Positions 33,083 to 63,103 of a DNA stretch of 64,000 nucleotides are shown here, piece after piece. Made by a program: the position numbers and the translations under genes. Numbering within the stretch: the first letter of the stretch is position 1; every line of letters begins with the position of its first letter. This stretch comes from Seleniivibrio woodruffii (GTDB taxonomy: Bacteria > Chrysiogenota > Deferribacteres > Deferribacterales > Geovibrionaceae): positions 992,770 to 1,056,769 of the forward strand of contig NZ_SMGG01000003.1 of NCBI RefSeq assembly GCF_004339245.1, in the 5' to 3' direction. The notes under the pieces were generated by a model. It was not told the DNA's origin and ran no database searches. It worked only from the letters and a program-made list of their open reading frames with translations.

Positions 33083-33192
33083 CGTTTATAACGCTTCGCA
33101 TTTCTTCGTTGTCCTTAAAAAAATTATCCTCACATACTTCTATGTATGCTCGTCAATTTTTTCTCGTCCGCCTTGAACTGCTCGGTTCTAAA
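33083..33192 (+). repeat. Terminator-associated repeat R2, copy 3
   Basis: Begins CGTTTATAACGCTTCGCATT, has an internal ACATAC/GTATG hairpin, and ends CCTTGAACTGCTCGGTTCTA. Closest to the copy behind rho at 8219. It occupies part of the 365-base gap between flaG and cysK, together with R4 and R3 copies. Confidence 0.8.
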
Positions 33193-33218: not shown

Positions 33219-33248
33219 GTCATTCTGAGGCAAATCCGAAGAATCTCA
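33219..33248. repeat. Dispersed repeat family R4, single copy
   Basis: GTCATTCTGAGGCAAATCCG then AAGAATCTCA. Same family as 8366, 63017 and the array spacers. Confidence 0.65.
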
Positions 33249-47084: not shown

Positions 47085-47615
47085 ATGAAAAAAATAATCA
47101 CAATGTTTATTGCTTCAGTATTCGCATTTTCCTGTTCTCAGGGCGTTGTCGACAAAGACAAAGCGAAAGAGCAGGCTCCCGCTGCAACAGAGCAGACGGC
47201 TGATCCCCATGCAGGTCAGGCAGCTGCCGACCCCCATGCCGGCGCTGAAAAGCCTAAAGAAAGAAAAGTTAACGTTCCCAAAGAGGTTGCTGAGAAATAC
47301 AAAAGCCTCATCCTTGAGGTTAAAAACACTAAGGACAACTCCACTGTTCAGTCCGATGTTATCATCGGTCAGAAAGCTGAAGTTCAGGGCACTCCCTTTG
47401 CAGTTGAAGTTGAGTACTACATGCCCGATTTCGTTATCGAGTCTGACGGTACCATCACAACAAGAAGCGCAGACGAGAAAAACCCTGTAGCCAAGATCAA
47501 GGTCTACAAAATGAACGAAGTGTTCTTCGACGGATGGCTGTTCAAAAACCACCCCACAGAGCACGGCAACTTTAACGACCCCAACTACAGCATTACGATA
47601 ATCAGCTCTAAGTAA
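47085..47615 (+). CDS. Lipoprotein with DUF2155-like domain
   Basis: A 176-residue exported lipoprotein. The signal peptide ends in a lipobox-like AFSC (Cys17). A linker follows with the sequence ADPHAG twice, rich in Ala, Asp and His. The C-terminal domain, about residues 70-176, has YMPDFVIES, NPVAKIKVY and FFDGWLFKNHP, matching DUF2155, a periplasmic domain of unknown function. It may bind metals through the His-containing linker, which is speculation. The two tRNA genes lie just upstream and a terminator just downstream. Confidence 0.75.
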   Translation: MKKIITMFIASVFAFSCSQGVVDKDKAKEQAPAATEQTADPHAGQAAADPHAGAEKPKERKVNVPKEVAEKYKSLILEVKNTKDNSTVQSDVIIGQKAEVQGTPFAVEVEYYMPDFVIESDGTITTRSADEKNPVAKIKVYKMNEVFFDGWLFKNHPTEHGNFNDPNYSITIISSK

Positions 47616-47620
47616 GTTAT

Positions 47621-47650
47621 AAGCCCCGCTTCCTGCGGGGCTTTCTTTTA
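47621..47650 (+). terminator. Rho-independent terminator after the lipoprotein gene
   Basis: AAGCCCCGC and GCGGGGCTT form a 9-bp stem around TTCCT, followed by TCTTTTA. Repeat R2 begins directly behind it. Confidence 0.9.
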
Positions 47651-47652
47651 TC

Positions 47653-47764
47653 CGGCGTCTATATGCTGCGCATCACTGCGTCAGCTTCTCTTCGGAACTG
47701 CTCACATACTTATGTGTATGCTCGCAGCCCTCTCATCGAATCTTCCTTGTCCTGCTTGCATCTA
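47653..47764 (+). repeat. Terminator-associated repeat R2, copy 4
   Basis: CGCATCACTGCGTCAGC, GGAACTGCTCACATACTT, an inverted CACATA/TATGTG, CTCGCAGCCCTCTC and CTTCCTTGTCCTGCTTGC. Closest to copy 1 at 6546. Immediately behind a terminator. Confidence 0.85.
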
Positions 47765-47786
47765 TCCTCCGTATTTCTTAATTTCC

Positions 47787-48889
47787 GTCACTCTGAGCTT
47801 TGCGAAGAGTCTCATTTCTCCGATTCCAGTCACTGCGAGGGCTTCAGCCCGTGGCAGTCTTCCACGTTCAGGCAGGCTGATGTTTAGGTTTACTGTGCTT
47901 GGAAGTCTGCTTCACTGCGTTCGCAGAGACGAAAAGATTGTCACTCTGAGCTTTGCGAAGAGTCTCACTCCGATTCCAGTCACTGCGAGGGCATAGCCCG
48001 TGGCAGTCTTCCACGTTCGGGCAGGCTGATGTTTAGGGTTACTGCGCTTGGAAGTCTGTTTCACTGCGTTCGCAGAGACGAAAGGATTGTCACTCTGAGC
48101 ATAGCGAAGAGTCTCGTTTCTCTGATTCCAGTCACTGCGAGGGCTTTAGTCCGTGGCAGTCTTCCACCTTCAGGCAGGCTGATGTTTAGGTTTACTGTGC
48201 TTGGAAGTCTGCTTCACTGCGTTCGCAGAGACGAAAATAGATTGTCTCTCTGAGCTTTGCGAAGAGTCTCATTTTTCCGATTCCAGTCACTGCGAGGGCA
48301 TAGCCCGTGGCAGTCTTCCACCTTCAGGCAGGCTGATGTTTAGGATTACTGAGCTTGGAAGACTGCTTCACAGCGTTCGCAGAGACGAAAAGAGATTGTC
48401 ACTCTGAGCGTAGTGAAGAGTCTCATTACTCTGATTCCAGTCACTGCGAGGGCTTCAGCCCGTGGCAGTCTTCCACGTTCAGGCAGGCTGATGTTTAGGT
48501 TTACTGTGCTTGGAAGTCTGCTTCACTGCTTTTGCAAAGACGAAAGGATTGTCACTCTGAGCTTTGCGAAGAGTCTCATTACTCTGATTCCAGTCACTGC
48601 GAGGGCGCATAGCCCGTGGCAGTCTTCCACGTTCGGGCAGGCTGATGTTTAGTGTTACTGTGCTTGGAAGTCTGCTTCACAGCGTTCGCAGAGACGAAAA
48701 GATTGTCTCTCTGAGCATAGCGAAGAGTCTCATTTCTCTGATTCCAGTCACTGCGAGGGCTTCAGCCCGTGGCAGTCTTCCACCTTCAGGCAGGCTGATG
48801 TTTAGGTTTACTGTGCTTGGAAGTCTGCTTCACTGCGTTCGCAGAGACGAAAATAGATTGTCTCTCTGAGCATAGCGAAGAGTCTCACA
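47787..48889. repeat. Tandem array of seven composite hairpin repeats (R3-R4)
   Basis: Seven units start at 47829, 47979, 48131, 48286, 48440, 48593 and 48747, a period of 150-155 bases. Each has an imperfect palindrome of about 105 bases: GTCACTGCGAGGGC...GGCAGTCTTCCA, a 40-base centre (AGGCAGGCTGATGTTTAG), then TGGAAGTCTGCTTCACTGCG...CGCAGAGAC. Units are joined by a 28-base R4 element (GTCACTCTGAGC...GAAGAGTCTCA), giving eight R4 copies. Copies vary by scattered substitutions and small indels, so the array is not freshly duplicated. Short open frames crossing it repeat the same peptide and are not genes. It fills most of the 1.3-kb gap between the lipoprotein and thioesterase genes. Confidence 0.95.
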
Positions 48890-48910: not shown

Positions 48911-49621
48911 TCAGATTATTTCGCAGAGGCAGGCGAGGGTGTCGCCGTCGAAGATTGAAACTATGCGGCTCTTATCCTCATCAGCTATCCTGACATCCAC
49001 AAATTCGGTTTCGGGTTTTATCTCGTGGTTGTAGAAAAGTCCCACGGTTTTTCCTGTGAAATCCATATCTGAGGATGCAAGCGAAAGCAGTTCGCCGTAG
49101 CGGATGTTGTTCATATGTCCGTTTATGTCGAAATCGGCGGGGCGGAGCTGAACACGCACTGATCTGTCGTATTTTTCCGCATCCTTTCTGTCCCAGCCGT
49201 CGATCATACTGCACATGTTGCAGACGTTTTCGCTCTGGTAGTCCTCATACATCTGGGGAGTGACCCTGACGGGACGCTTTCTTTCTATGTCGATATAAAG
49301 CCAGATGCTGGAGCCTTTTATACAGATTTCCCCGTCCGCTCTTATCTCATAGTTTCTGAAACCCTTGAACCTGTCCAGTCCTCTGGACCAGGTGCGTACG
49401 CTCAGCTCCTGAGCAAAGTCGGGAAACTTTTCTGCGTGTGCCATTAATCTGTTGAGGATCCAGATGTTTCCTCTGCCCATGTAGGTGTCGGCGGAGTAGC
49501 CGACGCTTGCCGAATGAGCCACTGCGGCTTCCTGAAATATCTTCAGTACAGCGTCAAAGCGCAGTTTCTTGTCAGCACCGTAGTCAGAGATATCTTTTGT
49601 TCTGATGTAATCGTAAAACAT
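48911..49621 (-). CDS. Acyl-ACP thioesterase
   Basis: A 236-residue protein with two hot-dog domains, of the FatA/FatB-type acyl-ACP thioesterase family (PF01643). The N-terminal FYDYIRTKDISDYG and the LNRLMAHAEKFPDFAQELSVRTW stretch (in part) are typical. The second domain carries the catalytic Asp/Asn/His set in DFDINGHMNNIRYGE. It releases free fatty acids from ACP. The strand is opposite to the upstream lipoprotein; its 3' end adjoins the repeat array. Confidence 0.9.
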   Translation of the reverse strand: MFYDYIRTKDISDYGADKKLRFDAVLKIFQEAAVAHSASVGYSADTYMGRGNIWILNRLMAHAEKFPDFAQELSVRTWSRGLDRFKGFRNYEIRADGEICIKGSSIWLYIDIERKRPVRVTPQMYEDYQSENVCNMCSMIDGWDRKDAEKYDRSVRVQLRPADFDINGHMNNIRYGELLSLASSDMDFTGKTVGLFYNHEIKPETEFVDVRIADEDKSRIVSIFDGDTLACLCEII

Positions 49622-62994: not shown

Positions 62995-63103
62995 GGCGTG
63001 CCGGAATGATCTACCCGTCATTCTGAACGAAGTGAAGAATCTGATTGAGATCCTTCGCTTTGCTCAGGATGACATATCCAATCATTCAGGCACGCCTTTT
63101 TTT
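62995..63103 (+). terminator. Terminator after the MCP gene with a repeat in its loop
   Basis: GGCGTGCCGGAATGAT and ATCATTCAGGCACGCC pair as a 16-position stem with one mismatch, followed by TTTTTTT. The loop (63011-63080) holds a complete R4-type palindrome at 63017. Confidence 0.8.
63017..63073. repeat. R4-type palindromic repeat nested in a terminator loop
   Basis: GTCATTCTGAACGAAGTGAA...AGAATCT, a five-base centre, then AGATCCTTCGC...CAGGATGAC. It is a nearly complete 26-bp hairpin made of an R4 copy and its inverse. Confidence 0.8.

Follow-up and report, generated by a model that had tools for sequence, protein, structure and literature searches.

A sevenfold tandem amplification of small CGTC-tagged REP hairpins between convergent genes of Seleniivibrio woodruffii

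What is the regular array of hairpins that lies between two convergent genes of Seleniivibrio woodruffii, and how did it come to have seven units? The locus belongs to a stretch of 64,000 nucleotides (the window), and the initial annotation, made from the sequence alone, had described it as a tandem array of seven long hairpins linked by eight small palindromes. This array is real. TRF gave a period of 154, 7.2 copies and 90% matches between 47787 and 48887, and the seven aligned units (153, 149, 155, 154, 153, 154 and 155 bp) are 88-97% identical to each other. We describe here that the array consists of three small hairpin repeats, amplified sevenfold in tandem, the class of which has already been described.

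All of the hairpins share one grammar. GTC is followed by a stem arm of 5 bases and by GA; an inner hairpin comes next, and the complementary arm of 5 bases then leads to CTC or CTTCCA. In the array REPs, the five outer pairs are continued across an internal loop by two to four inner pairs, with loops of 3-5 bases. By this shared grammar, the two components, which had been taken for different repeats, are sub-types of one family, and each unit of the array contains three REPs in the directions +, + and -. The small palindrome (B) is present in eight copies as described, with a measured length of 27 nt and not 28. The long hairpin (A) is present seven times, its length being corrected from about 105 bases to 102 nt; it does fold as one palindrome (DNA fold of -20 kcal/mol, z -3.0), yet it is itself made of two inverted REPs placed head to head. 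The positions previously listed for single copies in the window (1001, 8366, 16490, 33219, 33256 and 63017) are all placed within REP-like elements that obey this grammar; position 63017 marks the first REP of a pair at 63017-63073. Altogether, a stem-aware finder detected 28 REP elements in the window, compared to 0-2 in Markov-shuffled controls. An Rfam scan matched two tRNAs and nothing else. A 94-aa ORF over the start of the array (47712-47996) was regarded as spurious, and a CRISPR array was rejected, as the whole unit is repeated including its spacers, in place of identical repeats with unrelated spacers.

Table 1. Features of the array and its surroundings (positions in the window)
Feature	Position	Strand	Remark
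Upstream gene, 176 aa, lipoprotein-like N-terminus (by eye)	47085..47615	+	convergent with the right neighbour of the array
Terminator-like hairpin with T-rich tail	47621..47643	+	3' of the upstream gene
Complete array, B-(A-B)x7, period 149-155	47787..48887		TRF and unit alignment
B1, single REP, GTC-ACTCT-GA-GC-TTT-GC-GA-AGAGT-CTC, 27 nt	47787..47813	+	
Further B REPs (starts)	47940, 48089, 48244, 48398, 48551, 48705, 48860	+	
B8, closing REP	48860..48886	+	same direction as B1
A element, unit 1, 102 nt, two REPs head to head around a spacer of 43-44 nt	47829..47930		
A-left REP, unit 1, GTC-ACTGC-GA-GGGC-TTCA-GCCC-GTG-GCAGT-CTTCCA	47829..47861	+	
Other A-left REPs (starts)	47979, 48131, 48286, 48440, 48593, 48747	+	
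A-right REP, unit 1, GTC-TCTGC-GAACGCAGTGAA-GCAGA-CTTCCA	47903..47930	-	
Other A-right REPs (ends)	48079, 48232, 48386, 48541 (mutated), 48695, 48848	-	
A-right, linker and B2, 59 bp	47908..47966	+	second identical copy at G000:C5:230341-230399
Downstream gene, 236 aa, acyl-ACP-thioesterase-like (by eye)	48911..49621	-	runs toward the array

The same elements are abundant in the rest of the genome (G000 in the following; G001-G004, G008-G010, G018 and G025 are other genomes, and C denotes a contig). The restricted pattern GTCAYYSYGAN{5,18}RSRRTCT had 270 matches in the whole genome versus 2 for a reversed control pattern; REPs of the GTCT type, common in G004, are counted too low by it. The existence of other arrays and of hundreds of single copies in this genome excludes a one-off amplification, the reading that their absence was to have favoured. 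Because the pattern leaves the stem bases free within their class, covariation could be counted, and this was done in 178 copies, collected over 1.59 Mb of a genome that measures 2.9 Mb. The second stem pair was T-A in 91 copies and C-G in 87, with no mismatch, and Watson-Crick pairs were present in 175, 177 and 176 of the 178 copies at the third, fourth and fifth pair. The evidence that REP stem pairs covary almost perfectly genome-wide is thus overwhelming. The stability of a single REP as ssDNA was unremarkable compared to shuffles (z of 0.04 for B), so that the stem is evidenced by covariation and not by fold energy. Across the genome, the dispersed non-coding REPs tolerate loop changes and keep their tags and stem pairing, the GTC being invariant by design of the genome-wide finder.

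Regarding their context, 88 copies were convergent, 65 co-directional, 7 divergent and 8 genic by an ORF proxy; random intergenic sites, for comparison, were 19% convergent and 24% divergent. The base before GTC was C in 50 of 94 copies and T in 26, and it is A in the A-left copies of the array. The tails were CTCA/CTCT or CTTCC(A). Outside the array, the REP pairs found in 400 kb were head-to-head in 15 cases, tail-to-tail in 13 and head-tail in 3. Pairs with a long spacer (CTTCCA-35-TGGAAG) are also dispersed in G000, e.g. at C3:939626, C4:311750 and C4:625865; the length of their spacer is near constant and its sequence divergent.

We assign the array, as a tandem cluster, to the CGTC-tagged REP superfamily, a known repeat class, and not to a new kind of element. 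These REPs (CGTC-1 to -4) were defined by Di Nocera, De Gregorio and Rocco in 2013 as having an unpaired CGTC (or TGTC/CCTC) tag at one end, a stem of 8-9 bp whose first two pairs are A-T, a loop of 4-5 and a tail of three bases, mostly CCA; they form predominantly head-to-head pairs (tail-to-tail and head-tail pairs are rare) and rare clusters, are located between convergent or co-directional genes and have no dedicated transposase (PMC3733652). In the present case, we likewise find an unpaired CGTC/TGTC tag, a short interrupted stem, a small loop, head-to-head pairs and placement between convergent or co-directional genes; of the transposase families, Y1_Tnp and IS110 gave no match in this genome. 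In contrast to the published elements, C-G and T-A are equally frequent at the second stem pair, the tails are CTCA or CTTCCA, and both tail-to-tail pairs and tandem arrays occur commonly. Moreover, the host phylum, Deferribacterota, is absent from the five CGTC phyla of that study (Proteobacteria, Chlorobi, Bacteroidetes, Spirochaetes and Thermotogae), and a well-formed CGTC-tagged REP cluster in this phylum is new for the class. Other members of the superfamily are dRS3 of Neisseria and RPE-4/RPE-6 of Rickettsia (PMC3733652). The Neisseria copies also make large clusters, but these are mosaics with other repeat families, whereas the array described here is a regular 154 bp tandem.

As in the BIME clusters of E. 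coli, the REPs stand in alternating direction, in tandem and between genes; unlike those, they belong to another superfamily, come three to a unit and show no IHF consensus. The comparison with BIME-type REP clusters made at the outset was right as to the kind, but the superfamily is CGTC and not GTAG/RAYT. In the case of the REPINs that go with RAYT (Bertels and Rainey 2011, PMC3116915), the similarity lies in the A element, in which two inverted REPs and a spacer make one hairpin. Unlike REPIN/RAYT systems and GTAG REPs, the array and the listed copies carry GTC[A/T] and no GTAG tag, and no RAYT/Y1 gene was found in this genome.

To follow the origin of the array, relatives are informative. 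Among the genomes examined, this particular array was found in this genome alone. The orthologous gap contains a tandem of a different REP pair in G004 (88% protein identity; period 87, 4.4 copies), a single REP pair in L056 and no REP in the stretch read of L057 (68%); in L055, a different gene lies beside the thioesterase-like gene. Elsewhere, G010 (L060) has an array with other units and a period of 109, and contig C9 of G018 shows a regular run of listed REP positions. As arrays with other units occur in relatives, array formation recurs.

The ends of the arrays could then be compared in nine cases: the present array, five further ones from the 1.59 Mb and three from G004. The remainder beyond whole units was about one REP in the present array (27 nt), in C3:1103530 (34), in C4:732547 (38) and in G004:C6:244878 (32), and it was a REP plus 18 nt in C4:213877. 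Remainders of 68-88 nt were seen in C4:289818 and in two arrays of G004:C14, and one of the nine, C3:1221316, does not close on a REP. A REP-sized remainder is predicted by tandem duplication between two direct REPs and not by homology-free duplication. Since a REP of the same direction stands at both ends, since four other arrays likewise close on one REP, and since a relative has a different REP array at the orthologous site, we infer that the array was amplified locally, through recombination or slippage involving REP copies in direct orientation, and not by seven insertions.

In detail, a segment B-A-B bounded by two B REPs of the same direction would have multiplied in place to B-(A-B)7 with the help of the hairpins, either through unequal recombination of its B copies or through slippage of replication from one B copy to another. 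With 27 bp, the B copies are short for recombination of the RecA type, and slippage may therefore be required. It is probable that about four units were copied together in at least one step: units 1, 2 and 3 differ from units 5, 6 and 7 at 9, 11 and 4 positions (mean 8; permutation p of 0.0095, uncorrected for six offsets), and this similarity of each unit to the fourth one after it suggests, weakly after correction, that a block of about four units was duplicated. Between B1 and B8 there are 3 differences; two of the six inner B copies equal B1, one equals B8, two look recombinant, and one (48398) has other changes. Composite pairs have also been copied between loci, as the A-right, linker and B2 segment recurs unchanged at C5:230341. 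Overall, a tandem CGTC-REP cluster that multiplied in place and is near-neutral filler is the best explanation of the locus, and we consider it likely.

A different origin would be movement by an enzyme. A search for a REP-associated Y1-type transposase had been suggested, and Y1_Tnp (RAYT-type), the transposase to which REP movement is generally ascribed, gave no match in this genome, the same search being positive in control genomes; a RAYT was thus rejected as the mover here. The genome also had no IS110 match and one RVT_1 match. REP number was unrelated to the presence of Y1 (Mann-Whitney p of 0.52; Spearman 0.16, p of 0.35) in 35 genomes of the order with a completeness of 90% or more and a contamination of 5% or less. 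IS110 and reverse transcriptase were rejected as movers because by inspection neither tracks REP number. In the case of G008 (one contig, 100% complete), 106 REPs coexist with no match to Y1, IS110 or RVT_1.

An enzyme of unknown type could still build both the dispersed copies and the arrays, every unit having arrived as a mobile REP pair next to the one before, in line with the enzyme-driven movement proposed for RAYT and REPINs. Compatible with this are the dispersal of A-type long-spacer pairs, the identical 59 bp A-right and B block at two loci and the result of an empty-site test on 38 REP clusters. This test gave one likely gain (c17) and one clear intergenic gain, the REP pair at 1137806-1137877 (c25), which is absent in G003 and G004 with a clean gap of -2 to 4 bases between the flank matches. 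However, in the syntenic contigs compared, no target duplication was visible at REP gains at this divergence, and one-by-one insertion predicts neither the shared linkers nor the terminal B. Together with the missing Y1_Tnp, the independence of REP number from Y1 and the content of G008, this makes the enzyme unlikely. A further reading, of low probability, is that CGTC REPs spread with no partner of the HUH, IS110 or reverse-transcriptase kind, their hairpins being processed by the replication and recombination of the host. Arrays would then arise by the process that also disperses the copies, and REPs could even carry cargo, such as the guest sequence of about 45 nt that is found inside many REPs of this genus.

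Further observations concern the REPs of this group. On G025:C2, a single contig of a REP-rich relative, there are seventeen identical-scoring Y1 transposase genes of 144 aa. A guest sequence of about 45 nt (TATTCGACAATTA...GTGGACTCATACAGCCTTCGGCTAGT) occurs inside CGTC REPs in both orientations (G000:C4:344012, 442440, 209741 and 111152; G000:C5:282401 and 209966; G004:C6:228732 and 279921; others). In this genome, it interrupts the REP at GTCAYTCT^GAG, and in relatives the apical loop is its usual place. Its core pattern was counted 17 times in this genome, 21 times in G004 and 5-6 times in G001 and G003, with a single diverged match in G002 and G009. When the guest was removed, a strict rule counted a REP as restored in 9 of 22 cases, compared to 4 of 2000 random sites. 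G000:C5 and G000:C6 both start with the same approximately 95 bases of a REP composite; the assembly thus seems to be interrupted at a REP block that is repeated.

Next to its origin, the array raises the question of selection, as the preservation of arms and period had been read as a sign of selection or gene conversion. Among the seven units, 0 of 20 columns vary in the tags, 1 of 14 in the internal loops, 6 of 42 in the stems, 7 of 14 in the hairpin loops and 12 of 63 in the spacers. Stems therefore vary as often as spacers (p of 0.60), tags and internal loops taken together less (1 of 34, p of 0.03) and hairpin loops more (p of 0.003). A check for compensatory changes between the arms revealed no double change; as read from the alignment, unit 5 breaks the long hairpin arm, and unit 4 improves one pair and breaks a local one. 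With stems varying like spacers and no compensatory change, the argument for selection on the array fails and the family-wide constraint holds. Inside the array, signs of constraint are limited to the unpaired tags and the internal loops.

Orthologues of the upstream gene are 64-87% identical in relatives, and the nearest named relatives of the thioesterase-like gene are from Seleniivibrio and Deferribacteraceae MAGs. The terminator-like hairpin sits between the upstream gene and the array, which places the array beyond the terminator of that gene; between the thioesterase-like gene and the array, a terminator search found none. With a terminator on the left-gene side only, any RNA role would be on the minus strand. 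Selection could accordingly keep the array as an RNA 3' structure or as a transcription barrier between the convergent genes, and REPs at the same site in two relatives, in one of them as an array, might mean that the site is kept for function. This is rather improbable, as the units are unrelated in sequence to the array of the relative, the more distant relative shows no REP in the stretch read, the stem columns vary like spacers and no T-tract follows the hairpins. A platform for IHF, gyrase or another nucleoid protein, as in E. coli BIMEs, is very improbable: the layout resembles BIMEs and nothing more does, the array has no IHF consensus on either strand, and only the REPs and the A spacer, with no other sequence module, are shared with single copies.

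We therefore return to local amplification of near-neutral DNA. The array appears to have no dedicated function and, with low confidence, is most likely near-neutral filler 3' of two convergent genes; at most, it supplies hairpins of RNA or DNA behind the thioesterase-like gene. A second dispersed repeat of about 116 nt (GATGCAAGCAGGACAAGGAAG...CATACACATAAGTATGTGAG) lies on the minus strand of the window at 47702-47720 and 33130-33148, adjoining the array and the REP cluster near 33219, and related tandem arrays occur in G003.

In conclusion, the simplest idea for the movement of these REPs, a resident RAYT-type enzyme, is removed for this genome. The order offers a clean test set for CGTC REP movement, with genomes closely related to one another that carry from 0 to 270 copies and a closed genome that has 106 copies and no match to Y1, IS110 or reverse transcriptase. 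The array ends show the mode of growth, and there are loci where the gain, loss and amplification of REPs can be followed between strains.
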